Origin: Gallionella sp.
GTDB taxonomy: Bacteria > Pseudomonadota > Gammaproteobacteria > Burkholderiales > Gallionellaceae
Assembly (NCBI GenBank): GCA_028707275.1
Contig: JAQTUP010000001.1
Span: 372,001-436,000 of the forward strand
Direction of reading: 5' to 3'
DNA: 64,000 bases
Numbering within the stretch: the first letter of the stretch is position 1; each line of letters begins with the position of its first letter. The position numbers and the translations under genes were made by a program. The notes below the pieces were generated by a model. It ran no database searches and was not told the origin of the DNA. It saw only the letters and a list, made by a program, of their open reading frames with translations. Below are positions 4,637 through 48,759 of this stretch, in pieces.

Positions 4637-7177
4637 ATGAATAAGTTGTCATTCTGGAAAAAAGACTGGTTTGTCGGAATACTGGTCGCTCTGGCGTTCT
4701 TGTCGGGCGCCAACAGTGATCTGATCCAGAGCCTGGAGCGCAAGGCCTATGATTTGGCGATGGTATCTACCTCCCGCACACCCAGCGACCGTATCGCGGT
4801 GATCGCCATCGACGATCAGAGCATCGCCAATCTGGGGCGCTGGCCCTGGCCGCGCGAGATACATGCCAGGATGATCGACATTCTGTCCAATGGTCATGCC
4901 AAGGTCATCGGGCAGACCGCGTTTTTCTTCGAGCCGCAAGTCGATGCCGGACTGGGTTACATCCACAAAATTACCGAATTAATCGATAAATCCACACTGA
5001 AAGATTCCGCAGATCCTGTGCATCAGGATGAGATTTTGCAACTCAACGCCTTGCTGCATCTGGCGGCAGAAAACCTCGACAACGATCAGAAACTTGCCGC
5101 CAGCATGGCGCGCGCGGGCAACGTTCTGTTGCCTATGTACTTCAGTCCGGGCGCGCCACAAGGCAAACCGGATCAGCCCTTACCCGACTACGTACTGCGA
5201 AATAATCTGAGCAATATTACAGACACAGGTTCTGAAGGCCCGGTGCCGGCACAAGGCGCGCTGGCTCCCATTCCCGTGCTGGGCAAGGTGGCGTTCTCAA
5301 TAGGACATCTGAATAGTATTCCTGACGTGGATGGCGCGATACGTACTGAACCGCTGGTGGTGGACTATTACGGTCAACACTACCCTTCTCTTTCGCTGAT
5401 GCTCGCCGCCCGTGAATTAAATCTCGAACCTGCCGATATTCAGGTCGACCTGGGCGCCGGGGTGCAACTGGGGAATCTGAAGATTGCGACCGACCCCAAC
5501 TTGCAGATGCACACTTATTTTTACAAGAACAAGGACAACCTGTCCGCCTTTGCCGTGGATTCGTTTTACGACGTATATACCGGAAAGATTCCTGCCGAAA
5601 AATATCGCGACAAGATTGTGCTGATTGGCGCCTCGGCAGCGGGCGTGGGTAGCTTGCAAGTCACCCCCGTCTCGTCAGGGATGGCGCCTGTGCTCACCCT
5701 GGCTCACTCCGTGTCCGGCATACTCCAGGGTGATTTTTTCATCGTGCCGGAATGGGCGGCCATGGCGCAAATCGGCATTTTCCTGTCCGTCGCCCTGTAT
5801 CTGATTCTGTTGCTGCCCCGATTGAGTGCGGCGATTGGCGCGCTGGTGACAGGTATGCTGTTCGCGGCATTGCTAGGGGCTCATTTTGTGCTGATGATGA
5901 CACAGGCGATGTGGCTGCAGCTGATGTTGCCCGCAGCCCTGCTGCTGACGGGGCATTTGCTGCTGACCACCAAACGTTTTCTGGTCACTGAAAAAGGCAA
6001 GCAAAAATCCGATGCGGACTCAGCCGAAAGCAATCGCATGCTGGGCCTGGCTTTTCAAGGGCAAGGACAACTGGATATCGCCTTCGACAAATTTCGCAAA
6101 GTGCCGCTGGATAACAGCCTGATGGAAGTCTTGTATAACCTGGGGCTGGATTTTGAACGCAAGCGTCAGTTCAATAAGGCGGAGTCGGTATTCAAATACA
6201 TGGCCGAATACAACCCAAAGTTTCGCGACCTGGCACAGCGCGTAAACAACGCGCATGACATGGCTGAAACGGTAGTACTGGGCGGCACGGGCGGGCGCAC
6301 CAATACCAGCATGATGTCGTCGGGAAAATCCGGCGTATCCAAACCCATGCTGGGTCGTTACCAGATCGAAAAAGAACTGGGCAAGGGCGCCATGGGCGTG
6401 GTGTATTACGGCACAGACCCCAAGATCGGTCGTGTCGTGGCCATCAAGACCATGGCGCTGTCCCAGGAGTTTGAAGCGGATGAACTCGAAGACGTGAAAG
6501 CGCGTTTCTTCCGCGAGGCCGAAACAGCAGGTCGCCTGAACCACCCGAATATCGTCACCATGTACGACGCGGGTGAGGAACATGATTTAGCCTATATCGC
6601 GATGGAGTTCCTCAAGGGACATGATCTGGTTCCCTACACCAAACCCGACCATTTACTGCCCTTGCCCCGGGTGATGAGCATCATCGCGCGCGTGGCCGAT
6701 GCGCTGGAGTATGCGCACAAACTCCATGTGGTGCATCGCGACATCAAGCCGGCCAACATCATGTACGACGCTGAGACGGACACCCCGAAAGTCACCGACT
6801 TCGGCATTGCGCGGATTACTGATTCGAGCAAGACAAAAACCGGGATGGTGCTGGGCACCCCTTCTTACATGTCCCCCGAACAACTGGCCGGCAAGAAAAT
6901 TGACGGAAGTTCGGACATGTTCTCCCTGGGCGTGACCCTGTACCAGCTGTGTTGCGGGAAATTGCCGTTTGAAGGAGAGTCCATGGCGCAACTGATGTAC
7001 CGTATCGCCACCGAGCCTCCTGCCGACATACGGGCAATCAGGCCGGATTTGCCCGAGTGCCTGGTGTCTATCATCAACAAGTCACTGGAAAAACAGATGG
7101 AAGATCGTTATGCGGACGGCGCCCAGATGGCGCAAGCCTTGCGGCAATGCGCCGCCAGCCTGAATCCTGAATCCTGA
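4637..7177 (+). CDS. CHASE2-TPR transmembrane Ser/Thr protein kinase
   Basis: This protein has 846 residues from the ATG at 4637, which has GGAGG 6 bp upstream; the longer frame from 4478 lacks a ribosome site. Order of parts: a signal-anchor helix (about 10-28); a periplasmic CHASE2 sensor with IAVIAIDDQSIANLGRWPWPR; a block of about three membrane helices (about 370-450); a TPR-like helical stretch (residues 470-530); and a Hanks-type kinase from about residue 572. Kinase motifs are complete: GKGAMG loop, VAIK lysine, HRDIKPAN catalytic loop, DFG, and SPEQ in place of APE. It probably senses a periplasmic signal and phosphorylates a cytoplasmic target, which is unknown. Its last codons and stop lie in a 7-bp repeat, and it converges on the Pil-Chp operon. 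Confidence 0.93.
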   Translation: MNKLSFWKKDWFVGILVALAFLSGANSDLIQSLERKAYDLAMVSTSRTPSDRIAVIAIDDQSIANLGRWPWPREIHARMIDILSNGHAKVIGQTAFFFEPQVDAGLGYIHKITELIDKSTLKDSADPVHQDEILQLNALLHLAAENLDNDQKLAASMARAGNVLLPMYFSPGAPQGKPDQPLPDYVLRNNLSNITDTGSEGPVPAQGALAPIPVLGKVAFSIGHLNSIPDVDGAIRTEPLVVDYYGQHYPSLSLMLAARELNLEPADIQVDLGAGVQLGNLKIATDPNLQMHTYFYKNKDNLSAFAVDSFYDVYTGKIPAEKYRDKIVLIGASAAGVGSLQVTPVSSGMAPVLTLAHSVSGILQGDFFIVPEWAAMAQIGIFLSVALYLILLLPRLSAAIGALVTGMLFAALLGAHFVLMMTQAMWLQLMLPAALLLTGHLLLTTKRFLVTEKGKQKSDADSAESNRMLGLAFQGQGQLDIAFDKFRKVPLDNSLMEVLYNLGLDFERKRQFNKAESVFKYMAEYNPKFRDLAQRVNNAHDMAETVVLGGTGGRTNTSMMSSGKSGVSKPMLGRYQIEKELGKGAMGVVYYGTDPKIGRVVAIKTMALSQEFEADELEDVKARFFREAETAGRLNHPNIVTMYDAGEEHDLAYIAMEFLKGHDLVPYTKPDHLLPLPRVMSIIARVADALEYAHKLHVVHRDIKPANIMYDAETDTPKVTDFGIARITDSSKTKTGMVLGTPSYMSPEQLAGKKIDGSSDMFSLGVTLYQLCCGKLPFEGESMAQLMYRIATEPPADIRAIRPDLPECLVSIINKSLEKQMEDRYADGAQMAQALRQCAASLNPES

Positions 7178-7179
7178 AT
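7159..7179 (+). repeat. Heptamer tandem repeat, site A (CCTGAAT x3)
   Basis: There are three perfect copies of CCTGAAT, from base 7159 to 7179. They encode the last residues of the kinase (LNPES), and the third copy supplies its TGA stop (7175-7177). The repeat fills the convergent junction with the minus-strand CheW-like gene, which ends at 7180. Confidence 0.9.
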
Positions 7180-7644
7180 TTAATCCCCGGGACTCGCGAA
7201 TATGCGCCCCAGGTTCAGGACGGGCACAGGCACTCCCTCATGTTCGAAGCAGGAAATGGCTAAGGGTTGCCAGACAGACGAGAGTTCCGACAACGCGCAC
7301 GCCTGTGAGTTGCCCACTGAAACAGCAACAGGCGTTGATGCCAGCATGAGGGCGCCAAAGCGTGTTTCTCCTCCGGAACTGCTTTGATAACCTGCGACGG
7401 CCAGCAATTTTGGCGGTTCTGGCAAACCGCCCAGACGCACATTCATGTCCATCACCGCCAGCAGCTGATCTTTCCAGAACACCACGCGACGACAATATTG
7501 GGGGGTGTCGGGCAACACAAAAGTCTTCGGCTGATCGATCAACTCCAACAACACCAGCGTCCCCACGGCAGCGCACCCTGCACGGCCAAAATCCAGCAGC
7601 CAGGCGTTGTTGCGCGACAGGCCGCGTTTTATTTCAGTCGCCAC
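7180..7644 (-). CDS. CheW-like domain protein, end of Pil-Chp operon
   Basis: A CheW-type beta-barrel protein of about 154 residues, if the GTG at 7644 is used (GGGGG a few bases upstream). The frame is open to an ATG at 7713, but that would overlap the preceding gene by 80 bp. Visible CheW-like features are alternating hydrophobic strands, a ...RRVVFWKDQLLAVMDM core and a C-terminal VPVPVLNLGRIF strand. Members of this family link chemoreceptors to a CheA kinase. It is the second of two small CheW-like genes after chpA, in the place where other Pil-Chp operons carry chpB/chpC. Sequence conservation is low, so the family call rests partly on context. Confidence 0.7.
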   Translation of the reverse strand: MATEIKRGLSRNNAWLLDFGRAGCAAVGTLVLLELIDQPKTFVLPDTPQYCRRVVFWKDQLLAVMDMNVRLGGLPEPPKLLAVAGYQSSSGGETRFGALMLASTPVAVSVGNSQACALSELSSVWQPLAISCFEHEGVPVPVLNLGRIFASPGD

Positions 7645-8095
7645 AAACGCCCCCCGTCCGTCCGATGTACCCGGCCAGTTGCCGCGCGCAACTGACGCAG
7701 ACAATGCCATCATCCATGGACAGCAGATACTGAACGGGCGACCCGGCCCGTCTCATGGAGGCAGGCAACTCATATTGGCGCTGAGGAATTTGCCGCACGA
7801 TACTGACATCATCGGCCAGTATCCCCATATATTCAGCCTCGACCGCCAGCAGCACACAGACCCGGCACGCAGGCGGCACCCGGGTGAGCAGTTCCAGATC
7901 CTCAGACAAACAGTAAACCGGCCAGCGCTGTTGCGCGTAACTTATCCAGCCGACACTGCCTGTCAGAGGCTCATTCGTGTCGACGTCGGCTGCCGCTTCT
8001 ACCGTACGAATATCAGTTTGCGGCAGCAACAGGTGCATCCCGGCAATCTTCAATAAGGCCGCCGCCCCTGGCGCGGAAATGGGCATCATACTCAT
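7634..8095 (-). CDS. CheW-like protein (ChpC-like position)
   Basis: This 153-residue protein starts 3 bp after the chpA stop, so the two are translated together. It has the CheW layout of two beta subdomains: LLKIAGMHLLLPQTDIRTVE at the start, then WISYAQQRWPVYCLSEDL and CVLLAVEAEYMGILADDV. A CheW adaptor would couple receptor (PilJ) to kinase (ChpA). The Pseudomonas operon has one such gene (chpC) here; this one has two in a row. The 3' end overlaps the next gene by 11 bp. The specific role of each adaptor cannot be told from sequence. Confidence 0.75.
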   Translation of the reverse strand: MSMMPISAPGAAALLKIAGMHLLLPQTDIRTVEAAADVDTNEPLTGSVGWISYAQQRWPVYCLSEDLELLTRVPPACRVCVLLAVEAEYMGILADDVSIVRQIPQRQYELPASMRRAGSPVQYLLSMDDGIVCVSCARQLAGYIGRTGGVCGD

Positions 8096-8098
8096 CGT

Positions 8099-11000
8099 TT
8101 ATCTGCTGCGGGTCAGGCGCATGACATGTTGCAGCAACACATCGTCGTCAAAGGGCTTGGTAAGGTGGACATCGACACCGGAGGCCCGGCCCATTTCGCG
8201 ATGCTTTTCGGTCGTGCGCGAGGTAATCATGATTACCGGGATGTGTTTGGTGCGTTCCGAGCTGCGCACATGCGCTGTGAGCTCCAGACCATTCATGCGC
8301 GGCATTTCCATGTCGACGAGCATGATGTCGGGAATCAGTCTCGTCAGTAAATTGACGGCATCCAACCCGTCGGAGGCCGACTGCACCTCAAATCCTGCGT
8401 CTTTCATGAGCTGGGTCGCGGCACGCCGGGCGGAGAGCGAATCGTCGACCACCAGCGCGGTCAGGATCTTCTCTTCAGGCAATGGCCCGACATTCGTCGT
8501 CGCATCGCCGACATAGGTTGCATGCACCTTGTGTACGCGCAACAGTTCGACCAGATCAATCACAGGTGCCGTGCCGCCGTCACCCAGAATAACGGCGCCG
8601 ATCACGCCCTGAGTTCTGGGCACATAACGACCGAAATTCTTCATGACCAGCTCGCGGCTGCTCAAGATTTCCTGCACCAGCACCGCGCGCACTGCGCCAT
8701 CATCTATGCGCGTGAGCAGCACGGGAAAACCTGAACTTTCCTCCATACGCAGATCGCCTGCCAGTGAAAGCAATTTTTCCAGTCTGACCAGCTCATATAC
8801 CGCATCCCCTTCGCGTATATACTCAAGCTCACCTGCCAGCTGGATTTGTTCTCGGGAAACATAACGGATATCCTCAATCCCCCGGCTTGATATGGCCAAA
8901 AGTTTTGCACATTGCCGCACGATCAGGGTATGGGTGGATAACAACGCCGCAGGCATGCGCAGCTCGACTTCAAATCCTGCGCCGCGCCTGGAATTGAGCG
9001 ACAACATGCCCTTCATTTCCTGCACGCGGTTATATACCACGTCCAGCCCGACGCCGCGTCCTGACACCTGCGAGGCGGCGCCTGCACGCGTTGAAAAACC
9101 GGGGCTCAGAATCTGCCGGGCGAGTTCATCTTCTGAATAATCGTGTCCGGGAACAATCATGCCGCGGCTCTCGGCGATGCGGCGTATCGTTTCATAATCC
9201 AGACCTGCCCCGTCATCGCGACAGCGTACGACGATGTAATTGCCCTCATGCGAAAAGGACAACTCGATGCGCCCCTGCGACCGCTTACCTGCCATGGCGC
9301 GCACCTCGGGCATCTCGATACCGTGATCGACCGCATTGCGCAGTATATGCATCAGCGGATCCATCAGGTCATTGAGCAACTGGCTGTCAATATTGGTGTT
9401 CTCGCCCTTGATGACCAGTTCAACCTGCTTGTCGAGCAGGCGACCCGTTTGTCGCACCCCGCGCTGCAAGCGTGGAACAACGCTGGCCACGGTCACCATG
9501 CGCGTGCGCATCACGGCATGCTGGTTGGATATTTGCAGGCGTCGCTGCTCTTCGAGCAGATCATCCAGCGTGGACAATTGTTTTGTGACCCCTGCATTCA
9601 ATTCCTGCGCGTCGGTCGCCGCCTCGATCAGCCGCCGTGTCACCGTATGCAATTCGCTGTAATGCTCGAATTCCAGACTGTCTAAACCATCATCTTTGTG
9701 TGCTGCGGATATTTGCGGCGAAGTGACCCCGCGAAAGTCCACCAGCTCTTCGAGTTCTGCGACCAGTTGCAACAACAGCTGATTTTGTTTGCCTATCACT
9801 TCTGCCTGACTGATAGACTGGCGCAAACGCTCCTGAATCTGGGAATTGGCGATCAGTGTCTCGCCTGCCAGTCGCAACAACTCATCCACCACAGGCGCCG
9901 GGACGCGCAATGACTGCTCCACGACGACGGGCGCCGGGGCGGCTTCGTGCTCAAGCGCTTTGAAATCCGCGACAGGCGTCAGAGGCTCAGATACTGGCAA
10001 CACGCCCATATCAGCCGACAACACCCCCTCTTTGTCGATTAAATTGGCGCAATCGAGCACATCCTGAAATACCTTTAACGCATGATCGGGTTCCGGGCCC
10101 AGCCCCAGCAGAAATTCACTCATCGCCGCAAGACAATCATCCGCATTGATCAGTATCGCGGCCACCGATGGCGGCGGCAGTATAGATGCATCGATTAACG
10201 CCACCAGAATATCTTCAAGATGGTGAGTGAGATTGGCGATCCCCGCCACGCCCACGGTATTGGCGGCGCCTTTGAGGGTATGTGCGGCGCGCATGGCGCG
10301 CTCGACATCCTTCATATTGCCCTGACCGCTGGCAATCAGCTCAATGGCAGCCGTAAATGCGCCCACTTGCAAGGGTAACTCCTGAAGCAAACCTTCGAGC
10401 AATTCCTGATTGACCTCACCTGACAAAATCAAGGACACGTCCTGCCAGGTGGCGATGCTCTGACGCGGCGCCTCAGGTTGAGCGCCTTCCATGACCTGCA
10501 CAGAGGCCAACGCCCCTTGCAACAAGGCGACTTCATCGTAGGCGATGGGCTGCGCCCAGACGGGATCGGCCAGGATCAAAGCCAGCGCATCGCAACTGTT
10601 TTCGTCGCCGGGTGCTGCGAGGTAGGCGGCCAGAAATTCGGGCAATTGTCGTAAAAGCCCTTGTTGTTCCACTGACAAACCGCCTGTCAGCTGTGAGAGT
10701 TGCTGACCTAACTGCATGAGTAATGCCGCCAGTGCGGCAAGCCCGACAGACTCGGCCGTCGAGCCGATGCGCTCTAAAAAATCCCGGAAATTGCCAAGCG
10801 CTGCCTGTTGCTCGTCGGGCGCACCGCTCGTAATAATGTCCAGATCGACATCGAACTGTTCTGCGAGCAAAGCCAGCTCGGATGCCAGGATGGACAGCAT
10901 TTCGCTCTCGACTTGCTGTGGCGAAAGATTCAGCAAAAGCTCGGCGAAAGCCGAGGGTGCAGCGGAGGAAGCAGGCGTGATCGCCTGCCCCATCAAGTGC

Positions 11001-11404
11001 GCCAACTCGCAGGCGGCAGACTCTTCGGACAAGGCCATAGGCAGACTTTGCAGCAAGGCTGTACTCGACACAAGGTCTGCCCGATGGGTCAGATAGTCGA
11101 ACAACAGCAACGGCCATCTCTCCAGTATGGCTGACTCGTCGGCCGTAATTACCCGCGCGCCCCCCTGCATAAACAACAAATTTGCCTCGAACATTGCGCA
11201 GACCGATTGCAGCCCTTCCAGGCCGCAGTCCCAGGCCAGCTGACCGATTTTCTCGGCCAATTCGCTGTAGCTTGTCAGCAGACTTGCGGCAACATCAGCG
11301 TCAGTCCTCGCTGCCGGGCATTGCTGCACGAGCACCACCAGCTGATCCAGTTCATCGGCGGCGAGCTCGAAGAGCTGCGCCAGCCTGATTTCTAGCGTGT
11401 CCAT
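8099..11404 (-). CDS. chpA: Hybrid chemotaxis histidine kinase/response regulator (ChpA/PilL)
   Basis: This central kinase of a type IV pilus chemosensory system has 1101 residues from the ATG at 11404. A GTG at 11452 would overlap pilJ. Order: an N-terminal region of about 330 residues with degenerate Hpt-like helices; one canonical Hpt domain with HTLKGAANTVG (about residue 370); a dimerisation region; a HATPase with HILRNAVDHG and DDGAGL (from about residue 680); a CheW-like domain; and a C-terminal receiver with DIMLVDMEMPRMNG (phospho-Asp near 1025) and a closing TKPF. Pseudomonas ChpA has several Hpt-type modules and is roughly twice this size, so this is a shortened form. It should phosphorylate PilG and PilH. 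Confidence 0.95.
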   Translation of the reverse strand: MDTLEIRLAQLFELAADELDQLVVLVQQCPAARTDADVAASLLTSYSELAEKIGQLAWDCGLEGLQSVCAMFEANLLFMQGGARVITADESAILERWPLLLFDYLTHRADLVSSTALLQSLPMALSEESAACELAHLMGQAITPASSAAPSAFAELLLNLSPQQVESEMLSILASELALLAEQFDVDLDIITSGAPDEQQAALGNFRDFLERIGSTAESVGLAALAALLMQLGQQLSQLTGGLSVEQQGLLRQLPEFLAAYLAAPGDENSCDALALILADPVWAQPIAYDEVALLQGALASVQVMEGAQPEAPRQSIATWQDVSLILSGEVNQELLEGLLQELPLQVGAFTAAIELIASGQGNMKDVERAMRAAHTLKGAANTVGVAGIANLTHHLEDILVALIDASILPPPSVAAILINADDCLAAMSEFLLGLGPEPDHALKVFQDVLDCANLIDKEGVLSADMGVLPVSEPLTPVADFKALEHEAAPAPVVVEQSLRVPAPVVDELLRLAGETLIANSQIQERLRQSISQAEVIGKQNQLLLQLVAELEELVDFRGVTSPQISAAHKDDGLDSLEFEHYSELHTVTRRLIEAATDAQELNAGVTKQLSTLDDLLEEQRRLQISNQHAVMRTRMVTVASVVPRLQRGVRQTGRLLDKQVELVIKGENTNIDSQLLNDLMDPLMHILRNAVDHGIEMPEVRAMAGKRSQGRIELSFSHEGNYIVVRCRDDGAGLDYETIRRIAESRGMIVPGHDYSEDELARQILSPGFSTRAGAASQVSGRGVGLDVVYNRVQEMKGMLSLNSRRGAGFEVELRMPAALLSTHTLIVRQCAKLLAISSRGIEDIRYVSREQIQLAGELEYIREGDAVYELVRLEKLLSLAGDLRMEESSGFPVLLTRIDDGAVRAVLVQEILSSRELVMKNFGRYVPRTQGVIGAVILGDGGTAPVIDLVELLRVHKVHATYVGDATTNVGPLPEEKILTALVVDDSLSARRAATQLMKDAGFEVQSASDGLDAVNLLTRLIPDIMLVDMEMPRMNGLELTAHVRSSERTKHIPVIMITSRTTEKHREMGRASGVDVHLTKPFDDDVLLQHVMRLTRSR

Positions 11405-11429
11405 AGGCTTATTGTCGTGGGGGCTGACG

Positions 11430-13271
11430 TCAGCCTGGCAACTTGAACACACGCACAGTGGCCAAAAGCTGCTTCGCGTATTCCACGAGGTTGCGGGTTT
11501 GTCCGGACTGCTCCTCTAGTTGGATACTCGCGTGTTCACTGTTGCGCCTGATGGATGCCGCGCGCACCAGCAATTCCTGACCCGCCTTGGCCTGAGTGGC
11601 AGAGGTCGCCGCAATCTGTTTCACCGATGCGGCAAGATCGGCCGTGGCGTCCCCTGTCAGTTGCATTTGCTCTCCTGCCTGTTCGGCCAGGCGACTGCCC
11701 TCGACGATCTGTGTGATGGCGGTATTCATGGTATTCACCGTATCCACAGTTTCCATCTGGATATTGCTGACCAGGGCTGCAATCTGCTGGGTCGCCTGAC
11801 GGGCATTTTCTGCCAGCCGTTGCACTTCGTCCGCCACCACCGCAAAACCACGACCGGCTTCACCTGCAGATGCCGCGTGCATACTCGCGTTCAGCGCAAG
11901 AATATGCGTACGTTCCGCGATCACGTTAATCAGGTTCACCACCCCGGAAATTTCCTGCGAGCGTTCGCCTAAGCGCTTGATACGTTTTTCCGTTTCGCGA
12001 ATAACGTCCCGCGTTTTGTTAATACCGCTGACCGTATTAATTACCGTGGAGAGCGCCAGCTGGGTGGTTTTAACCGCATTGTCAGCGGCGATATTACATC
12101 CGCGTGCAAGTTCGGCGATTTCGTCCAGCGCATGCGCGGCAGAGGACAAGGACTGCTCGGTAAGATCAACTTCCACGCGCTCATCTGCGGCAGAGAGCAA
12201 CATGGACTCAGCCTGACGCTGCACTTTGAGCGAAGCCGAAGTCACATCCGCCGAGATGTTGGACACATCCTGCAACGTCTTGGAGGTTTCGCGGGAAAAC
12301 AGGTTGAGCGCGTCCGCTACGGCGCCGGTCACATCCTCGGACACAGGCACCTTTACGGTCAGATCCTTTTTAGCCAACTGCGCCACTGCGAGCAACAGCC
12401 CCAATACAGAATCGTTCAGCTGTTCGTTTTCAGTTTCGATCCGTGCCTGTGTCGCCATACGGTTATCCAGCAGTTCGTTGAACGCCTTGGCCAGCACGGC
12501 CAGCTCATCGCCACTACCTGTTTCGGCGCGTGCATCGAGCTTGCCCTGATTGATTTCGGTAATCGTACCCATGAGGCGTTCAAGATTTTGAATAATGCCG
12601 CGTGTAATGAAAAAGCCCAACGCAATCAACAGCGGTACCGCAATACCCAGCACGGCCACCGTCACCCAGAGCGTAAAGCTGCTGCTTGATTCAACATCGC
12701 GCTTTGACGCTTCAACCGACTGGTGAGCCGCCTCGGTAATGTCCGCAGCCTTCTTGTTGATCATCTCGGCAAAGGCCTTGTCAGCGCCCCTCACCAGCTT
12801 GTCGATGTCCTGCCCGGACGACTCCTGCGCCGGGTTAAATTGCCCGAGCGCGGCAACGTATCGCTCTTGCAGCGACTTGTGCGCCTTGAGCAGTTCATCG
12901 ACATCCTTTGAACTGACCAGCGCACTTAACGCGGATTCAGTCGACAGTTTGCGCACCTCTTCCAGCTGCGCGTCCACTTCCTGGTTAAATTTTACAAAAG
13001 AGTCATGGTGGTGAGTGTAGAGTTCCGGATTATTGCCGCGCAGCAAGATATTCTTCCACTCCTGAACCTGCGAACGAAAAGTACCGCGCACGTCCGTAAT
13101 TTTCCTGAGCAGATCGAACATGGAAGAGTTGGAATCGACCGCCTCGTTAGATATTTGCGACAGGGAATAGACACCCCAGGTGGCTGCCGCCCCCACGCCA
13201 CCTAAAAACAGAACAGCGGAAACGGCCAGAATCGTGATCTTTGCCCTGATGGTTAAGCGGATACTTTTCAT
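11430..13271 (-). CDS. pilJ: Methyl-accepting chemotaxis protein PilJ
   Basis: This 613-residue receptor has a first membrane helix at about residues 12-35, a periplasmic helical sensor (about 36-195), a second helix near 200-222, a HAMP domain, then a long cytoplasmic coiled coil. The signalling tip is seen near residues 450-483 as [21 protein letters not shown] followed by [15 protein letters not shown], which is diagnostic of chemoreceptors. In known systems PilJ senses pilus or surface contact and controls ChpA. It lies between pilI (36 bp upstream) and chpA (about 25 bp downstream). No CheR- or CheB-type gene is present in the operon, so adaptation by methylation is not evident locally. 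Confidence 0.95.
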
Positions 13272-13862: not shown

Positions 13863-13885
13863 TCTACAGGCCTGGCCGGGCTTTA

Positions 13886-24116: not shown

Positions 24117-25123
<1,007 letters not shown>

Positions 25124-34249: not shown

Positions 34250-35494
34250 TTGCAACCCTACGAACTATTCATCGGCCTGCGCTACACCCGTGCCAAGCGA
34301 CGCAACCATTTCATTTCATTCATTTCACTGATTTCCATGCTCGGCATGGGACTGGGCGTGATGGCGCTGATCGTGGTGCTCTCGGTAATGAACGGCTTCC
34401 AGAAGGAAATTCGCGCACGCATGCTGGGCGCATCCCCCCACCTGGAAATAGTCGCCGACGGCGGCCGGATGCAGGACTGGCACCCCCTGCTGGCGACGGT
34501 CTCCGCCCACCCGCAAGTCACGGCCAGCGCCCCCTATGTTGCAGGACAGGGTATGTTGTCGTTCGGCCAGAGCGTACAGGGCGTGATGGTGCGCGGCATC
34601 GATCCTCTGCGTGAGACCGCCATTACCGATCTTGCCAACAAAATCAAGGCGGGGAAATTAGCGGATTTGCGCAGCACGGAATTCGGTATCGTGTTAGGTT
34701 CCGATCTGGCGCGAGCGCTGGGGGTGCGCATGGGTGAAAAGGTCATGCTGATTGCGCCGCAAGGCTCGGTCACCCCCGCCGGCATGATGCCGCGCCTGAA
34801 GCAATTTCGCGTAGTGGGCATCTTTGAAATCGGCATGGCGCCTTATGACAACAGCCTGGCGCTGATCAATATCATTGATGCGCAAAAACTGTTCCAGCTG
34901 GGTGATGCGGTAACCGGGATCAGCACCAAGCTGCGCGACATCGACAAAGCCCCTGACGTGGCCAGCGAGCTGCAACACCAGTTGCCGCCCCACCTCTTTG
35001 CCAATGACTGGACGCACCAGAACAGCAACTACTTCCGTGCGGTGCAAATGGAAAAGAAGATGATGTTCATCATTTTGTCACTGATCGTCGCGGTCGCCGC
35101 CTTCAATATTGTCTCAACCCTGGTAATGGCCGTCACCGACAAACAGGCCGACATCGCCATTTTGCGCACCCTGGGCGCATCGCCTCGCAGCATCATGAAA
35201 ATATTTATCGTGCAAGGGGTCGTGATCGGTCTGATCGGCACGCTCATAGGCAGCCTCTGCGGCATCCTGCTGGCGCTCAACCTTAACGTTGTCGTGCCTT
35301 TTATCGAACACCTGTTCGGCGTGCAGTTTCTCGCAAAGGACGTGTATTACATCAGCGAGTTGCCATCCGATCTGCGCTACCACGAGGTCTTGCTGGTATC
35401 GGGTTTGTCGTTCCTGATCAGCCTGATGGCCACGCTATATCCGAGCTACCGCGCATCCAAAACACAACCGGCGGAGGCTTTACGCTATGAGTAA
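34250..35494 (+). CDS. lolC: LolC/LolE-type lipoprotein-releasing permease
   Basis: This 414-residue protein starts at TTG 34250 and has four membrane helices. The first follows MQPYELFIGLRYTRAKRRNHF and the last three are in the final third, separated by a large periplasmic domain. It ends with ATLYPSYRASKTQPAEALRYE, the typical LolC/E ending. With LolD it lifts lipoproteins from the inner membrane to LolA. Only one permease gene is present, as in organisms where a single LolF-like protein forms a homodimer. It overlaps lolD by 8 bp. Confidence 0.93.
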   Translation: MQPYELFIGLRYTRAKRRNHFISFISLISMLGMGLGVMALIVVLSVMNGFQKEIRARMLGASPHLEIVADGGRMQDWHPLLATVSAHPQVTASAPYVAGQGMLSFGQSVQGVMVRGIDPLRETAITDLANKIKAGKLADLRSTEFGIVLGSDLARALGVRMGEKVMLIAPQGSVTPAGMMPRLKQFRVVGIFEIGMAPYDNSLALINIIDAQKLFQLGDAVTGISTKLRDIDKAPDVASELQHQLPPHLFANDWTHQNSNYFRAVQMEKKMMFIILSLIVAVAAFNIVSTLVMAVTDKQADIAILRTLGASPRSIMKIFIVQGVVIGLIGTLIGSLCGILLALNLNVVVPFIEHLFGVQFLAKDVYYISELPSDLRYHEVLLVSGLSFLISLMATLYPSYRASKTQPAEALRYE

Positions 35495-36269
35495 TATTCA
35501 GGATTCAGGGTTCAGGATGCAGGACTCGAAAGGCTGCGGGATGCAGGAGGCAGAAACCGGGGACAAGGGACTTAAAACAGCAAAACTGCGTACCGATTTG
35601 GTTATCTCATGTCGCGACCTGAGCAAGACCTATACGCTGGGCAAACTGCAAGTCCCCGTGCTCAGAGGCGTGAGCCTTTCCATCGAACGCGGCGAGCGCA
35701 TCGCCATCATAGGTTCATCAGGTTCTGGCAAGAGCACCTTGCTGCATCTGCTGGGCGGTCTGGACAATGCAAGCTCCGGCAGTGTCGAGATACTCGGGCA
35801 GGATGTTCAGAAGATGAATGAGAAGCAACGAGGCGACATCCGCAATCAGTCGTTAGGCTTCGTCTATCAGTTTCACCACCTGCTGCCGGAATTCACAGCC
35901 CTTGAAAATGTCGCCATGCCGCTGCTGATACGCGGCATGAAGCGCAGCGAGGCCAAACCGGTCGCCGCCGCCATGCTTGCAAAAGTGGGGCTGGCGCATC
36001 GCACAGGCCATTTGCCGAGCGAACTGTCAGGGGGCGAACGTCAGCGCACGGCGGTCGCGCGCGCCCTTGTCACCGAACCTGCCTGCGTGCTGGCCGACGA
36101 GCCTACCGGCAACCTGGATCGCAACAGCGCAGAGGAATTGTTCGACCTGATGCAGCAACTCAACGAGCAACTCAAAACCAGTTTTATCGTCGTCACCCAC
36201 GATATGGAACTGGCAAAACGCATGCAACGCAGCCTGAGACTGGTGGACGGCGTACTGCACAACGCATAA
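35487..36269 (+). CDS. lolD: Lipoprotein-releasing system ATP-binding protein LolD
   Basis: This 260-residue ABC ATPase has a Walker A (GSSGSGKST), signature LSGGERQR, Walker B CVLADEPTGNLD and the switch His VVTHD. The first ~30 residues (MSNIQDSGFRMQDSKG...) are not part of LolD (normally ~225-235 residues) and come from a 7-bp repeat at 35496-35523. The true family start corresponds to ISCRDLSKTYTLG. Several ATG codons in the repeat (35517, 35541) could serve as alternative starts. Confidence 0.93.
   Translation: MSNIQDSGFRMQDSKGCGMQEAETGDKGLKTAKLRTDLVISCRDLSKTYTLGKLQVPVLRGVSLSIERGERIAIIGSSGSGKSTLLHLLGGLDNASSGSVEILGQDVQKMNEKQRGDIRNQSLGFVYQFHHLLPEFTALENVAMPLLIRGMKRSEAKPVAAAMLAKVGLAHRTGHLPSELSGGERQRTAVARALVTEPACVLADEPTGNLDRNSAEELFDLMQQLNEQLKTSFIVVTHDMELAKRMQRSLRLVDGVLHNA
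35496..35523 (+). repeat. Heptamer tandem repeat, site C
   Basis: There are four units in a row: ATTCAGG, ATTCAGG, GTTCAGG, ATGCAGG. A fifth, degenerate unit follows, and another ATGCAGG lies at 35541. They encode the start of the extra N-terminus of LolD, IQDSGFRMQDS, in the same peptide register as at sites B and D. Confidence 0.9.
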
Positions 36270-41135: not shown

Positions 41136-41153
41136 TTTTAAATGCCGCACGAT

Positions 41154-41182
41154 AAAAAGAGCCGCTATAAGCGGCTCTTTTT
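41154..41182 (+). terminator. Rho-independent terminator after the DUF4149 gene
   Basis: A 13-bp stem AAAAAGAGCCGCT, a 3-base loop ATA, then AGCGGCTCTTTTT. It is symmetrical enough to serve the convergent pntB side as well. Confidence 0.92.
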
Positions 41183-41295
41183 CATTTCGACAAAGAGACT
41201 TTTAAGCTACTGCACAGGTCACGTCCTCGACGAGCATTTTCGCGTCGGCAATTCCCACGTCGGCATCTGCAAAGGCTGCATCGTCCGCGCGGCCG

Positions 41296-42717
41296 TTAGG
41301 CTTTCAACGCGGCGAGCACTTCTTCGAGCATTTTCTTGGCATCGCCGAACAGCATGCGGTTGTTCTCTTTATAGAACAGAGGGTTGTCGACACCCGCATA
41401 GCCGGTCGCCATGCTGCGCTTCATCACGATCGAGGTTTTTGCACGCCAGACTTCCAGCACCGGCATGCCGGCGATGGGGCTGTCCGGATCTTCCTGGGCT
41501 GCCGGATTCACGATGTCGTTGGCGCCTATCACCATGCAAACGTCAGTATCGGGAAAGTCCGCATTGAGTTCGTCCATCTCCATCACGATGTCGTAAGGCA
41601 CCCGGGCTTCGGCCAGCAGCACGTTCATGTGGCCGGGCATGCGGCCTGCAACCGGATGGATGCCGAAACGCACGTTGACGCCCCGCTCGCGCAGCAGCTT
41701 GGTGATTTCATTGACCGTATGCTGTGCCTGCGCCACGGCCATGCCGTATCCCGGCACGATGATCACGCTCTTCGCATCCTTGAGCAGTTCGGCCGTCTCG
41801 ATGGCGCTGACAGGCACCACTTCCCCCGCAGGCACCGCATCACCGTCAGCCTTTTTGGCAGGCTTGCCCGCGCCCGTGCCGAATCCGCCCGCGATCACGC
41901 TGATGAAGTTGCGGTTCATCGCCCGACACATGATGTAGGACAGAATCGCGCCGGAGGATCCTACCAGTGCGCCCACGACGATCAGCAGGTCGTTGTTCAA
42001 CATGAAGCCGGTTGCCGCTGCCGCCCAGCCGGAATAGCTGTTGAGCATGGACACCACCACCGGCATATCCGCCCCGCCGATGGCCATCACCATATGGACG
42101 CCGAACAGCAGCGCGATGACAGTCATCACGCTCAGTGCGATCATGCCCGCACTGACCGATTCGGCGTGCATGAATTGCCAGCCGAACGCGATGACGACCA
42201 GCAAACCTGCCAGATTCATCAGGTGACGCCCCGGCAGCAACAAAGGCTTGCCGCCTATCTTGGCCGACAGTTTGCCAAAAGCGATCAGGGAGCCTGCAAA
42301 AGTCACCGCACCGATCAATATGCCCACATAGATTTCGATCTCGTGGATCGCTTTTTCGGCAGCGGACAGATTTAACGCCGCCATCGGGTCGATGTAATTG
42401 GCAAAGCCGACCAGCATGGCGGCCAAGCCTACCAGACTGTGCATCAGCGCGACCAGTTCTGGCATCTGCGTCATTTGTACCCGGCGCGCCGCATAAAGAC
42501 CGACGCTGCCACCTGCGACCATCGCGACGACGATCCAGGGAAGTGCGGCCGCCGTGACGCGCGGGCCGAACACCGTGGCCAGCACGGCGATGGTCATACC
42601 GATCATGCCGTAGAGATTGCCGCGCCGGGAAGACTCAGGGTTGGACAATCCTCCCAGACTGAGGATGAAAAGAATGATTGCACCAATATATGAAACGGTT
42701 GCCAGGCTTGCAGACAT
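41296..42717 (-). CDS. pntB: NAD(P) transhydrogenase subunit beta PntB
   Basis: This 473-residue protein has about nine membrane helices in the first 280 residues (domain II) and then the NADP(H)-binding domain III with [22 protein letters not shown], given by its [10 protein letters not shown] core, and [19 protein letters not shown]. It pairs with PntA to move protons while passing hydride between NADH and NADP+. The gene follows pntA by 80 bp on the same strand. Confidence 0.96.
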
Positions 42718-42797
42718 AATTTATTACCTTAACATTAATCGTTTTTGTTCTTGCACGATAGCGGGTAGCCAACCTGATTTTGCTGCCCGCTACCGGC

Positions 42798-44366
42798 TCA
42801 CTTGCGGAACATTGCCAGCATGCGCCGGGTGACCGCGAAACCGCCGAACATATTGACCGCCGTGAGCGCGACACCCCCCACCGCCAAGGCGAGTATCCAG
42901 CCATCCGGACGATCGAGACCTGTTACCAGCGGCGGGGCGATCTGCACCAGCGCGCCGATGGCGATGATGCTGGAAATCGCATTGGTGACGCTCATCAGGG
43001 GCGTGTGCAGAGCCGGCGTGACGTTCCACACCACCATGTAACCTACGAAACACGCGAGCACAAACACGGTAAAGTGGCCTAAGAACGCGGCGGGCGCGAA
43101 AGCGCCGATCAGCAGGAACAGCAGGGCTGCGGCGCCGAACAGGATGGCCGTTTTTCCTGCCGGGGCAGGCGCTCCACCGCCGCCATGCGACGCGGGCGCC
43201 GCGACCGGTTTGGCTATCGCCGGTTTAGCCGCAGGCAGTTTGAGCGCGGGAGCCGGCCAGGTGATCTCGCCGTCCTTGATCACGGTGAGGCCTCGAATGG
43301 CATCGTCTTCCATGTTGACGTGGATCACGCCATCCTTGGTCTTGCACAATTCCTCGGTCAGACGGAACAGATTGGTTGCATACAGCGTGGAGGATTGCCG
43401 GGCTAAGCGACTATTGAGATCCGTGTAGCCGACGATGGTCACGCCGTGCTTCACCACGACCTGACCCGGTTCGGTCAGTTCGCAATTGCCGCCGCGCTCG
43501 GCCGCCATATCGACGATGACGCTGCCCGGGCGCATCGACTGCACCATCTCGGCGGTGATGAGCCTTGGCGCCGGACGGCCCGGGATCAGGGCGGTCGTGA
43601 TGATGATATCCACTTCGCGCGCCTGCCGGGCATACATCTCGCGCTGCGCCAGCTGGAAGCCTTCAGACATTACTTTGGCATAACCGCCGCCACCGCCGCC
43701 TTCTTCCTCATACTCGACTTTAACGAAATCGCCGCCCAGGGATTTGACCTGATCGGCCACTTCGGCACGGGTGTCATTGGCGCGCACGATGGCGCCCAGG
43801 CCTGCCGCCGTACCGATCGCGGCCAAACCTGCCACACCGGCGCCGGCGATGAATACCTTGGCCGGAGGCACCTTGCCCGCCGCCGTGATCTGCCCGTTGA
43901 AGAAGCGCCCAAACACGTTGGCGGCCTCGATGACAGCCCGGTAACCGGCGACCCCGGCCTGCGAAGTCAGCGCGTCCATCTTCTGGGCGCGGGAGAGCTG
44001 GCGCGGCAGCGCATCGATGGCCAGCACCGTGGCGCGCTTGCCCGCCAGTTGTTGCATCAGTTCGGTATTTTGCGCAGGCCAGATGAAACCTATCAGGGTG
44101 ATGCCATCCGGCATCAGCTCAACCTCGGCGCGGGTCGGGACTGTCACCTTGAACACGATATCGGATTGAGCCCACAGCCGGGCGGCGCCTTCGACGATTT
44201 GGGCGCCTGCTGTGCGGTAAGCGTCGTCACTGAAATTCGCGCCGTCCCCCGCACCGGATTCGACCGCCACACTGAATCCCAGCTTGATGAGCTTCTCTGC
44301 GATCTCAGGTACCGTCGCGACACGCTTCTCGCCTGCATACGTTTCCGCAGGAATGCCTATACGCAT
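42798..44366 (-). CDS. pntA: NAD(P) transhydrogenase subunit alpha PntA
   Basis: This protein has 522 residues from the ATG at 44366, preceded by AGAGGAGAAA; the upstream frame to 44534 runs into the divergent mutL start. Domain I (NAD-binding, about 1-370) has [17 protein letters not shown], the [18 protein letters not shown]ossmann loop and a glycine-rich [11 protein letters not shown] insert. Four C-terminal helices follow. This is the single-chain alpha form (alpha1+alpha2 fused) of enterobacteria. Confidence 0.96.
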
Positions 44367-44420
44367 CTGTTTCTCCTCTGATGTAAATCGTGCATCAATG
44401 CACTTCTGATTAAGCCCGCG

Positions 44421-44461
44421 ATTATACCGATTCTCGCTGAACATAAAACCCCACGTATAAT
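44421..44461. promoter_or_regulatory. Divergent -10 elements of pntA and mutL
   Basis: A TATAAT on the minus strand (plus 44421-44426) points to pntA and a TATAAT on the plus strand (44456-44461) points to mutL. The -35 boxes are weak. The two hexamers lie 29 bp apart, so the two promoters could interfere. Confidence 0.4.
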
Positions 44462-44493
44462 CCCGTCTGTCGAATTTACCCTGCCCCTCGCTC

Positions 44494-46437
44494 ATGCCTT
44501 CATACATACGGGTACTGCCCGAACTGCTGATCAATCAGATCGCCGCCGGCGAAGTGATCGAACGCCCGGCCGCCGCCCTCAAAGAGCTGATGGAAAACAG
44601 TCTGGACGCAGGGGCGACCGACATTGATGTGCAACTGGACAATGGCGGCATCAAATTGCTGCGGGTGCGCGACAATGGCCGAGGTATCGCTAAAGATGAA
44701 CTGGCGCTGGCACTGATGCGCCACGCCACCAGCAAGATCGCATCATTAGACGACTTGCAAAATGTCACCAGCATGGGGTTTCGTGGCGAAGCGCTGGCCA
44801 GCATCGCCTCTGTCGCGCAACTGGCGCTGTCCAGCCGCACGCCTGAGACAGCGCACGGCTGGCGTGTCGACGCCATCGACGGTCGCCTGAGTGAGCCAGT
44901 ACCTGCGAGCCTCGCCGCAGGTACAACCGTTGAAATTCGCGAGTTGTACTTCAACACGCCGGCACGGCGAAAATTTCTCAAGACAGAGGCGACCGAATTC
45001 TCTCATTGCGAAGAGGTCTTCAAGCGCATCGCCCTCTCACGCCCCGATGTCAGCTTTTCGTTGCAACACAACGGACGCACCGTATGGCAACTGAATACAG
45101 GATTCAGGATGCAGGATGCAGGAGACAGGATTCAGGATTCAGGAGGCGGAATTCAGGATGCAGGATCCGAAAAACTAAAAACCGAAAATCAAAAACAGAA
45201 AACTGAAAACTGGCTTAGAGATGCGGCGCTGAAGCGCGTTGCAGCATTGCTCGGCGATGAATTCGGCAAGGCGGCGGTTCCCGTCTCGCGCAATGTCGCG
45301 AACCTCACGCTGCACGGTCTGGCCGCCCTCCCCGCTTATTCGCGGGGAAGTCGCGATGCGCAGTATTTTTTCGTCAACGGTCGTTTCGTGCGCGACAAGG
45401 TGGCCAGCCATGCCCTGCGCCAGGCCTATCAGGACATTCTGCATCACCTGCGCCATCCGGCCTTCGTGTTATTTCTCGAACTCCCGGCCGATCTGGTGGA
45501 TGTGAACGTGCACCCGGCCAAGAGCGAAGTGCGCTTTCGCGAAAGTCAGGGGGTACACCAGTTCATCTTTCACGCCGTGCAACAGGCGCTGGCCACCCCC
45601 GCAACACCCGCACCATCTGAAATCAACGCCCCGGATACTGTCAGCAAAACTGTCATGCCCGCCCAACTCCCACTGGGCGCAGCACAACCGGGTGCGACTT
45701 ATCAGGTGTGGGAGATGCAAAGCCAGGATTCGGGATTCAGGATTCAGGATTCAGGGATATCGCAGGTAAATAGTGAGTGGAAAGTGGATAGTGAAAAAAC
45801 CTCTCCCGCAGAGCACTCACCACTATCCACTATCCACTATCCACTATCCACTGACTATCCATTGGGTTTCGCGCTCGCGCAACTCTCCGGCGTCTACATC
45901 CTGGCGCAAAATGCACAGGGGCTGATCGTGGTGGATATGCATGCCGCACACGAGCGCATCGTCTACGAGAAACTCAAGACGGCGATGGACAATGAAGCCA
46001 TCGCCACGCAACCTCTGCTGATTCCGGTGTGTTTTCAGGCAGATGCACAGGACGTGGCAACCGTCGAGGCAGAACAGGCGGCGCTGAATGCACTGGGTTT
46101 TGAGATCGCACCGCTCTCGCCCACGACCCTTGCGATACGCGCCATGCCGGTGCTGTTAAAACAAGCCGAGGCGGAGGCTGCCGCATGCCTTGTTTTGCAC
46201 GAATTGCGTGAATATGGCGCCAGTCGCATGCTCACCGAACGGCGCAATGAACTGCTGGCCGGTCTGGCCTGCCACGGGGCGGTACGCGCCAACCGGATTT
46301 TGAGTCTGCCTGAGATGAACGCACTGCTGCGCGAGATGGAGCAGACCGAGCGCGCAGGCCAGTGCAATCACGGCCGCCCGACCTGGTTTGCCCTTTCCAT
46401 GAACGAGCTGGACAAGATGTTCATGAGAGGGCAGTAA
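44494..46437 (+). CDS. mutL: DNA mismatch repair protein MutL (endonuclease type) with two repeat insertions
   Basis: This 647-residue MutL has an N-terminal GHKL ATPase ([43 protein letters not shown]). The region joining the two N-terminal domains (residues about 201-240) is a 119-bp heptamer repeat. The linker (about 410-456) carries a second repeat array. The C-terminal domain has [12 protein letters not shown] (the DQHAxxExxxxE endonuclease motif with Met for Gln), ACHGAVRAN and CNHGRP (metal-binding). It nicks DNA in organisms without MutH. The reading frame is intact through both inserts. Confidence 0.95.
45095..45213 (+). repeat. Heptamer tandem repeat, site D: 17 units inside mutL
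   Basis: Exactly 119 bp are filled with 7-bp units in register. The first eleven are of the ATTCAGG/ATGCAGG type (45095-45171; some degenerate, such as AGGCGGA and ATCCGAA). The last six are of the AAACTGA type (45172-45213). The block lies at the boundary of the ATPase and transducer domains, and is translated as a Gln/Asp/Gly/Lys-rich loop. Confidence 0.93.
45721..45860 (+). repeat. Heptamer tandem repeats, site E in the mutL linker
   Basis: Four ATTCAGG-type units (45728-45755) are followed by GGATAGT-type units (45772-45792), then by four perfect CACTATC units (45821-45848) with degenerate copies on each side (to 45860). GGATAGT and CACTATC are each other's complements in 7-bp register, so the array contains an inverted pair. 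It encodes an unstructured part of the MutL linker. Confidence 0.92.
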
Positions 46438-46440
46438 AAG

Positions 46441-46500
46441 GTAGCCAGTAGCCAGTAGCCAGTAGCCAAAAAATTATCCATTATCAATTTTCAATTCTGA
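46441..46500. repeat. Heptamer tandem repeats, site F (mutL-MFS spacer)
   Basis: Four perfect GTAGCCA units (46441-46468), a four-A bridge, then four degenerate units of ATTATCC type (ATTATCC, ATTATCA, ATTTTCA, ATTCTGA; 46473-46500). They fill the whole 67-bp spacer apart from the last few bases before the ATG. Confidence 0.92.
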
Positions 46501-46504
46501 ACTA

Positions 46505-47806
46505 ATGAACCCGACCCCTGAATCCCGGATCCCGAATCCTGCATCCTGCTCGACTCTCCGTATCGCCTTCGCCAGTTTCATCGGCACCGCCATCGAATTT
46601 TACGATTTCTACATCTACGGACTGGCGGTCGCGATGGTGATAGGCCCTGTTTTCTTTCCCGACAGCGACCCGGCGGTGCAGGCATTGAACGCATTTCTCA
46701 CCTTTGGCATCGCCTTTATCGCAAGACCCATCGGCGCGCTGCTGTTCGGCCATTTCGGCGACAGGATAGGACGCAAGACCACGCTGGCCGTCTCGCTACT
46801 GGTGATGGGCACCTCCACCACACTGATAGGCTTTCTGCCCGGCTACGCGCTCATCGGCTGGACGGCTCCTCTGCTGCTGTGCCTGCTGCGTTTCGGCCAG
46901 GGCATAGGCTTGGGGGGAGAATGGGGGGGCGCGGCCTTGCTGGCGGCGGAATATGCACCGAAGGGGCGCAGAGGCTGGTTCGGCATGTTCCCGCAACTGG
47001 GGCCGCCGGTAGGTTTCCTGTTAGCCGTCGGAAGTTTCCTGTTGTTATCGCAATGGCTCGATGATGAGCAGTTCCGCGACTGGGGCTGGCGCATCCCGTT
47101 TCTGGCAAGCTCCATACTGGTCGTCATCGGTCTGTACGTGCGGCTGAAACTGTCTGAGACGCCGGTGTTCGAACAAGCGCTGAAAACGCATAGCCCGCTG
47201 AAAATGCCGATGGTCGAATTATTCACCCGTCACGCAAAACCGCTGCTGCTGGGCGCACTGGTGATGGTGGTGTGTTACGCGCTGTTCTATATCTCCACGG
47301 TGTTTTGTTTGAGCTATGGCACCACCACACTCGGCATCCCGCGCCCACAATTTTTGTCCATGCTGTGCGTGGCCGTGCTGTTCATGGCGGCCGCCACGCC
47401 ACTCTCGGCTTGGGCAGGCGACCGCTTCGGACGCCGTCCGGTATTGATTATGGCGGGCGGTTTAGCACTGCTGTCCGGCTTTCTGCTGGAACCGATGCTC
47501 GCCAGCGGCTCGACTGTTCAGATCACCATTTTCCTGTCCATCGAACTGTTTTTGATGGGTGCGACCTTCGCGCCGATGGGCGCGCTGCTGCCGGAACTCT
47601 TTCCCACCGCCGTCCGTTATACGGGAGCCGGGACAGCTTATAACCTGGGCGGCATCCTGGGCGCATCGCTCGCCCCCTATATCGCGCAACAACTGGTGCT
47701 GGCGGGCGGACTTTCCTGGGTGGGCGGCTATATATCCGTTGCCGCCGCCATCAGCGTACTGGCCGCCATCGCCATCAACGAAACCCGCGACAAGGAACTG
47801 ACATGA
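46505..47806 (+). CDS. MFS transporter, metabolite:H+ symporter family
   Basis: This 433-residue transporter has 12 predicted membrane helices. The first 20 residues ([17 protein letters not shown]) are encoded by a heptamer repeat and are not part of the family. Then [20 protein letters not shown] begins helix 1, and [13 protein letters not shown] is the loop 2-3 motif of the MHS (ShiA/ProP-like) group. It probably takes up organic acids, shikimate-like or compatible solutes with protons. No ribosome site is visible before the ATG because the repeat occupies that space. Confidence 0.92.
46517..46551 (+). repeat. Heptamer tandem repeat, site G
   Basis: Five units in register: CCTGAAT, CCCGGAT, CCCGAAT, CCTGCAT, CCTGCTC. 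They encode residues 5-16 of the MFS protein. The last unit, CCTGCTC, is the same end seen at site H in miaA. Confidence 0.9.
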
Positions 47807-48759
47807 ATACCCCATCTTGCATCCTGCATCCTGCATCCTGCTCTTCGCTGCCTCCTGCCATTTTCCTGATGGGCCCTACCGCAAGCGGCAAAACGGGCGT
47901 GGCCGTCGAGCTGGCGCAAACCCTGCCCGTCGAAATCATCAGCGTGGATTCGGCGCTGGTGTATCGCGACATGAATATCGGCACGGCCAAGCCGGATGCA
48001 AAAATGCTGAGGATCGCACCGCATCACCTGATCGACATCATAGATCCGACCGATGCATATTCCGCAGCCCTGTTTCGCCGCGACGCACTGGCGCTGATGG
48101 CGAACATCACCGCGCGCGGCAAAATTCCGCTGTTAGTCGGTGGCACCATGCTGTATTTCAAGGCATTGAAGGGGGGCCTGAGCCCGTTACCCGTTGCCGA
48201 TGCTGCGGTGCGCGCAGAGCTCGATGCCACCATCGCACAGCATGGCACAGCGTATTTGCACGCCCAACTGGCGGCGGTTGACAAAGAGACGGCCGCCCGT
48301 TTATCGCCCAACGACACGCAACGCATACAACGCGCGATGGAAATTTATCGGCTCACCGGAAAACCGATGTCCGAACTACTCAGATACCAGGAAGAAGTCG
48401 AGTTACCCTACGATATCACCTCAATCGCGCTCATCCCGTCCGATCGCAGCGTGCTGCACCGGCGCATCGAGGCGCGCTTCAAACAGATGCTGGACGCGGG
48501 GCTGCTCGATGAGCTGCGCAGCTTGCGGCAAAAATACGACCTGCACCCCGAACAGCCTTCGATGCGCTGCGTAGGCTATCGCCAGGCGTGGCAATATCTG
48601 GAGGGCGAAATCAGCGAGGCGCAATTGCTCGAAACCGGCATCATCGCCACCCGCCAGCTCGCCAAACGACAACTGACCTGGCTGCGCTCCATGCCTGAGA
48701 ACGTGGAAATTGACTGTCTGACAGACAATCTGACAGGTAAAGTCATCCGGGCACTGTGA
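47803..48759 (+). CDS. miaA: tRNA dimethylallyltransferase MiaA
   Basis: This 318-residue enzyme adds a dimethylallyl group to A37 of tRNAs that read U-starting codons. The P-loop [32 protein letters not shown] and [18 protein letters not shown], given by its DxxxPxxxYS core, are all present. The first ~16 residues ([14 protein letters not shown]) come from a heptamer repeat and are extra to the family. It overlaps the MFS stop by 4 bp. In many relatives miaA lies after mutL directly; here the MFS gene is inserted between. Confidence 0.95.
47816..47843 (+). repeat. Heptamer tandem repeat, site H
   Basis: Four units in register: CTTGCAT, CCTGCAT, CCTGCAT, CCTGCTC. They encode the N-terminal extension of MiaA. 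Confidence 0.9.

Follow-up and report, generated by a model that had tools for sequence, protein, structure and literature searches.

Tandem arrays of 7-bp units (heptamers) were investigated in a stretch of 64,000 nucleotides from Gallionella sp. (family Gallionellaceae), hereafter the window, which comprises positions 372001-436000 of one contig (C12) in a genome (G000) of 3.17 Mb and 15 contigs. The arrays lie in or beside a CHASE2/protein-kinase open reading frame (ORF), a TadA-like deaminase gene, an ABC ATPase ORF located behind an FtsX/MacB-type permease ORF, and the genes mutL, MFS transporter, and miaA (table 1). Genes were placed with a crude gene caller, and the gene symbols and starts are our own assignment; for the ABC ATPase and MiaA, the caller picked starts later than the ATGs at 35487 and 47803.

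Table 1. Heptamer arrays of the window and the genes in or beside which they lie.
Feature	Positions	Strand	Placement
(CCTGAAT)3	7159-7179	+	Spans 3' end and stop codon of CHASE2/protein-kinase ORF (4478-7177)
CCTGAAT/CCCGAAT array	24621-24653	-	In frame near C-terminus of TadA-like deaminase (24602-25111, minus strand)
ATTCAGG array	35496-35524	+	Start of ABC ATPase ORF (35487-36269); in frame only if ATG 35487 is the start
mutL	44494-46437	+	Host gene with two heptamer insertion sites
CAGGATT/CAGGATG array	45098-45166	+	In frame in MutL, beginning near residue 202; stretch unaligned to solved MutL structures
Degenerate AAAACTG array	45171-45212	+	In frame in MutL, about residues 226-240
CAGGATT array	45724-45755	+	MutL interdomain linker, about residues 411-421
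Heptamer hairpin	45776-45852	+	MutL linker; G-arm starts at 45776, loop of 20 nt, C-arm containing (CCACTAT)n ends at 45852
(GTAGCCA)4	46441-46468	+	Immediately 3' of mutL stop codon
AATTATC array	46472-46496	+	mutL-MFS intergenic gap
CCTGAAT/CCCGAAT/CCTGCAT array	46517-46548	+	In frame at N-terminus of MFS transporter (46505-47806)
(CATCCTG)4	47813-47841	+	N-terminus of MiaA (47803-48759); in frame provided that ATG 47803 is the start

Arrays were located with Tandem Repeats Finder (TRF), and exact runs of about 2.6 or more copies were counted separately by period. A preliminary description of the window had listed eight heptamer loci, and TRF gave period-7 arrays at every one of these places. 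The loci themselves were right, although the two MutL arrays begin at 45098 and 45724 and not at 45095 and 45721; three further arrays found by TRF (45776-45797, 45820-45852, and 46472-46496) were not among them. The strict 7-bp register was borne out, and crude gene calls and Pfam bore out the position at gene ends, junctions, and linkers. The arrays run head-to-tail with no spacers between repeats and, as had been said, are not CRISPR-like. Eight exact runs had period 7, none had periods 4-6, 8-13, or 15, and the two with period 14 were both identical to period-7 arrays.

The count against shuffled sequence, a check proposed in the preliminary description, placed period-7 arrays far above the shuffles. 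In 464 kb of the genome (the window plus 20 stretches of 20 kb, L031-L050), we found 27 exact period-7 arrays with three or more copies versus none in five order-2 shuffles. Exact arrays of periods 5, 6, and 8-12 numbered 0-1, period 4 was at background (7 vs. 6-18), and period 3 showed a twofold excess (261 vs. 116-138). When mismatches were tolerated, there were 50 period-7 arrays versus none in two order-3 shuffles, and the remaining periods between 4 and 13 yielded 0-7 arrays, with a slight excess at 9 (7 vs. 0 and 1) and 12 (5 vs. 0 and 0). The units were diverse, including CAGGATT, GATAGTG, and AAGGGTG. The commonest unit family, CAGGATT together with CAGGATG, made up 22 of the 50 arrays, and across the whole genome three copies of CAGGATT with up to 3 mismatches gave 374 overlapping matches, the reversed pattern none. 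With up to 2 mismatches, this pattern matched 34 of 101 genomes (own included), namely 33 among the 61 genus genomes and 1 among the 40 of other families, and the present genome was the richest of all. The reversed control gave 14 matches in 4 of the 101, genomes where other heptamers occur. The longest array in the 464 kb (L048:15035-15158) has 17.7 copies, GGATTCG and then GGATTCA, directly behind a dihydrolipoamide-dehydrogenase-like gene.

Genes contained 20 of the 50 arrays, and 5 more spanned a stop codon; of the rest, 21 had tandem genes on either side, 4 convergent genes, and none divergent genes. Counted by midpoint, coding sequence held 21, tandem gaps 24, convergent gaps 5, and divergent gaps none, compared with sequence shares of 83%, 10%, 3%, and 3%. 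The 20 intragenic arrays were spread over 11 proteins, always in frame and located in loops, linkers, or termini. As 7 and 3 are coprime, every frame of an array encodes one heptapeptide cycle (e.g., QDSGFRI). MutL has four arrays at two sites, and its residues 201-246, the position of an insert, are unaligned or gapped against solved structures. Gapped or unaligned stretches relative to solved structures also hold the two arrays of CarA (about residues 185-210), the two of DnaE (about residues 588-607), and the in-frame array of MetG (about residues 280-302). Four arrays follow the lipoyl domain of a dihydrolipoamide-dehydrogenase-like protein. N-terminal arrays occur in dihydrofolate reductase (two), a GHMP kinase interpreted as IspE (part of the protein searched with Pfam), phosphoribosyl-AMP cyclohydrolase, and the MFS protein, and C-terminal ones in GcpE and the TadA-like deaminase. 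The in-frame inserts in DnaE, MutL, CarA, and MetG illustrate how repeats can add loops to essential proteins.

Some arrays are paired. We defined a hairpin as neighboring period-7 runs with complementary arms and called it G-first when the G-richer arm lay 5'. The genus scan, which covered the window, L031-L050, and the loci from L193 onwards, gave 50 distinct hairpins, many of them at shared orthologous sites, and all 50 were G-first. The same search at periods 5, 6, 8, 9, and 10 gave 0, 0, 0, 2, and 1 hairpins. In 60 loci scanned apart (L001-L030 and L163-L192), three further hairpins were found, all three G-first. Against 40 shuffles of each, 48 of the 50 genus hairpins had a predicted folding z < -2, and the median was -5.1. 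Eight of the 50 belong to the 464 kb of the present genome, one of them to the window. When the flanks of the 50 arrays in this genome were searched, a complementary partner was found at 14, of which 13 were G-first and 1 was opposite, with about one false call expected; some of these partnered arrays are the two arms of the same hairpin. The preliminary description had seen direct repeats only and missed this architecture, including the hairpin pair at 45776-45852. Hairpin loops often begin A-rich and contain a small GC-rich inner palindrome, as also in the Thiobacillus-related contigs L123, L125, and L147; a shared inner stem is possible.

The same polarity was found beyond the genus. The exact CAGGATT 24-mer occurred in at least 112 stretches with titles from many phyla, and 112 contig pieces chosen by the CAGGATT pattern contained 45 hairpins, of which 37 were G-first (3 of them from contigs titled Gallionella or Sideroxydans), 3 C-first, and 5 undecided. 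Three genomes reached via the repeat were sampled in stretches outside the listed matches, partly from contigs on the match list. A Blastocatellia genome had 64 period-7 arrays in 180 kb versus 0-4 at other periods, and its hairpins, with arms such as AATTGAG and ATTTGCG, were G-first in 9 of 9 cases; an Armatimonadetes genome had 12 arrays in 50 kb and a single hairpin, again G-first. Together, 10 of 10 hairpins in these two genomes were G-first. The G-first polarity is a structural rule that seems general across units and phyla.

Considering that one site may be empty, paired, or rewritten among close relatives, the genus serves as a natural experiment. The dnaE gene was matched in 57 of 61 genomes, and the best 30 of the 57 loci were read, with inserts labeled by eye. 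Nineteen carried heptamer inserts of several units (13 passed the automatic finder, own copy included, and 6 were recognized by eye), 3 carried other inserts, and 8 were empty. At the carA site, 10 of the 24 loci that could be excised (from 30) were empty. For mutL, 20 congener loci were fetched, of which 19 could be excised at one site and 10 at the other; they contained heptamers with different units, palindromic repeats of other kinds, or no additional sequence. On a tree of the dnaE flanks of the 30 genomes, insert labels were scattered as in shuffles (20 changes vs. a shuffled mean of 20.5), and the empty state needed at least six changes. The turnover is rapid: the sisters G043, with a hairpin, and G021, with an empty site, are separated by 23 differences in 660 flanking bases, and G013 and G031 have unlike units in both hairpin arms. 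In one species pair, G052 and G049, 25 of 660 flanking bases differ and the second arm differs by exactly 21 bp. Within a given species, the agreement of units between dnaE, carA, and mutL was mixed, as judged by eye. Assembly error, an explanation that the preliminary description had left room for, is unlikely because congener assemblies bear other repeats at identical sites. Other GC-rich palindromic repeats, for example CTCTCCCGCAAGCGGGAGAG, fill the same in-frame sites in mutL (L198, L201, L202, L207, and L209) and dnaE (L263 and L270). The mutL-MFS gap, about 110 bp and mostly heptamers in the window, measures 0.6-2.2 kb in 4 of 16 congener loci (L201, L204, L207, and L211).

Based on these distributions, we put at about even chances the reading that the heptamers are slippage-prone, near-neutral or selfish passenger repeats, partly hairpin elements, which are filtered by reading frame and are not a regulatory code. 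The hairpin element would consist of two complementary 7-bp-periodic arms, the first of them G-richer, joined by a short loop. Copy number would shift in 7-bp steps through replication slippage, with which the 21-bp difference of the one dnaE sister pair is consistent. The second arm might form by self-copying of a G-richer 3' end that has snapped back, giving the G-first order, and template switching might later maintain the complementarity of the arms. Units would reach other permissive sites, and replace the inserts there, via short-patch copying or recombination; searches with Pfam RVT_1 and PF01797 in this genome and the genus found no dedicated enzyme for such spread. The insert loops of mutL and dnaE seem to act as general acceptor sites for short palindromes. 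Selection would chiefly filter, and the pattern that intragenic inserts persist in loops, linkers, and termini and in frame is directly visible. A wider claim is possible and is put forward tentatively, namely that heptamer-armed hairpins form one class of element across the bacterial domain in which the unit is free while period 7 and G-first order are nearly invariant, made by core replication through 7-nt slippage and snap-back, which would also copy units between loci. If so, inserts would be rewritten even in dnaE, the gene of the replicative polymerase itself.

Several observations weigh against these proposals. The snap-back step is a guess drawn from the polarity. One unit family accounts for 22 of 50 arrays and 374 matches, for which local slippage is insufficient, and the vehicle of dispersal is itself conjectural. 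The genus hairpins are not independent because 27 of the 50 cluster at or just upstream of two genes in different species (12 at dnaE loci, 8 in the carA insert, and 7 upstream of carA). No complementary partner was found for 36 of the 50 arrays in the flank test, the arms are frequently complementary only imperfectly, and the loop motif AAAACC/GGTTTT is weakly shared (9 of 50 loops vs. at most 6 in shuffles). At dnaE, the GAGGACT unit type clusters on the tree with 2 changes, equaled in 1 of 500 shuffles, and hairpin and empty alleles differ in the adjoining codons too; exchange of alleles between species may lie behind part of the turnover there. The lack of arrays between divergent genes, where about 1.5 are expected, is not significant alone and carries little weight. 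The consensus unit was free of stops on the coding strand in 17 of 20 intragenic arrays compared with 38 of the 60 strand readings obtained from the 30 extragenic arrays, which is weak evidence of a selective filter. As for generality, five congeners sampled regardless of arrays had 1, 1, 0, 4, and 0 arrays in 100, 100, 60, 80, and 60 kb, respectively, and therefore the present genome is unusually rich; three copies of CCACTAT were present in only 5 of 61 genus genomes; and the third genome reached via the repeat, Halochromatium, had no arrays in 80 kb.

Heptamers might instead be ordinary long simple sequence repeats (SSRs), produced by local polymerase slippage only, with no dispersal and with units re-arising by sequence preference. 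Although the preliminary description had treated such repeats as unfamiliar in betaproteobacteria, an excess of heptamers has already been reported for numerous bacteria, with the length of DNA that the polymerase contacts proposed as its cause (PMC4679880 and PMC4692102). CAGGATT is also rare in other Pseudomonadota (2 of 397 genomes vs. 1 for the reversed control), and therefore its recurrence between phyla needs no transfer; transfer of CAGGATT between phyla was accordingly not supported. Slippage alone does not account for the predominance of a single unit family, the empty orthologous dnaE and carA sites show no seed unit by eye, and congeners differ in the unit of both arms, so that we regard this explanation as rather unlikely. 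A functional role as G-quadruplexes, RNA hairpins, terminators, or translation signals is distinctly unlikely in our judgment. The arrays do adjoin genes, stable hairpins are predicted, and the G-rich heptamers of Xanthomonas and Nostoc make quadruplexes in vitro (PMC4692102). However, the four tracts of three guanines required of such quadruplexes occur in just 5 of 50 genus G-arms, 25 of 50 have fewer than four GG tracts, and the polarity is kept by arms such as TTAGTCG and AATTGAG. Quadruplexes were thus rejected as a general cause, and a polarity common to unrelated units and phyla points to how the repeats are made. Sisters, moreover, differ in presence, unit, and length, and an Rfam search of nine sources, mostly carrying arrays, brought only one tRNA to the gathering score and no other family.

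The hairpin form, the dispersal, and the sites common to other palindromic repeats in congeners would suit elements mobilized by a Y1 (HUH) transposase, similar to repetitive extragenic palindromes with their associated tyrosine transposases (REP/RAYT) or to miniature inverted-repeat transposable elements, and PF01797 was matched in 51 of 61 genus genomes. Yet G039, a single contig, had no PF01797 match at E 0.001 and carries two heptamer hairpins in 100 kb sampled (L235). No period-7 array was found in 12 fetched PF01797 loci, which were the best-scoring, short IS200-like and not of RAYT length, or in the flanks of the single Y1 gene of the present genome. A Y1 transposase seems dispensable for heptamer hairpins, and we consider this origin very improbable. 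A stretch of roughly 200 bp by that gene (L050:8000-8820) is apparently present twice, near-identical by eye. Templated synthesis by a reverse transcriptase or a telomerase-like enzyme would explain short tandem units with the G-richer strand first, and RVT_1 was matched in 23 of 61 genus genomes; since neither the present genome nor G039 had a match at the sensitivity of Pfam RVT_1, this origin is scarcely credible.

The heptamers are real and striking. Dispersed tandem heptamers are familiar from cyanobacteria as short tandemly repeated repetitive sequences, with which the present arrays share only this class, the host group being different. Heptanucleotide hairpins exist in a Nostoc tRNA intron, the RNase P RNA of cyanobacteria contains heptamers, and correction of quasi-palindromes is known. 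In open-licence literature, surveyed by titles and the starts of abstracts, and in the papers cited here, we found neither a description of such hairpins from Gallionellaceae nor one of in-frame heptamers being rewritten from one congener to the next; polarity in units incapable of quadruplexes was likewise not described there. The kind of feature is known, as heptameric repeats and convergent pairs are already published in PMC4692102 and PMC4679880, both of which cite a 2007 survey for the question of heptamer dominance among bacterial long repeats. As in heptameric long SSRs generally, 7-bp tandem runs exceed chance in our 464 kb.

TAACTGA direct repeats were described in Beggiatoaceae, Cyanobacteria, and Bacteroidetes (PMC4679880). 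They resemble the present repeats in being heptamer arrays of patchy distribution, and we found a hairpin with a TAACTGA-type arm in a Crocosphaera contig (L091). They comprise a single unit that is mostly intergenic, immediately 5' of start codons, with one inverted case; here there are many units, hairpins, and in-frame inserts, CAGGATT/CAGGATG is commonest, and placement is mixed and not tied to start codons. Heptamer satellites (GATAGRA)n are on record in Chloroflexus (PMC6749651). Rickettsia palindromic elements, as outlined in a review (PMC10969869), lie in frame within unrelated metabolic genes, as do the palindromic inserts in coding genes here. They are about 150 bp long with conserved peptides, whereas the present arms are 7-bp arrays of changing sequence, and neither element sequence nor peptide is conserved, the units of congeners differing at one site. 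The closest likeness is to the heptamers GGGAATC in Xanthomonas and GGGGA(C/T)T in Nostoc, for which PMC4692102 reports convergent inverted pairs, 70 and 75 in two Xanthomonas genomes and few in Nostoc. Both systems have dispersed 7-bp tandem units that favor gaps between aligned ORFs and vary in length at shared sites, and the hairpins of the present genome have the convergent orientation of the close pairs in Xanthomonas. In contrast to those systems as described, here many units occur per genome, four GGG tracts are the exception among G-arms, 20 of 50 arrays are intragenic, orthologous sites carry other units, and the same polarity holds in unrelated units and phyla. In the present system, the appearance, loss, and change of repeats are visible between close relatives, a clean comparative setting for which we found no earlier description.

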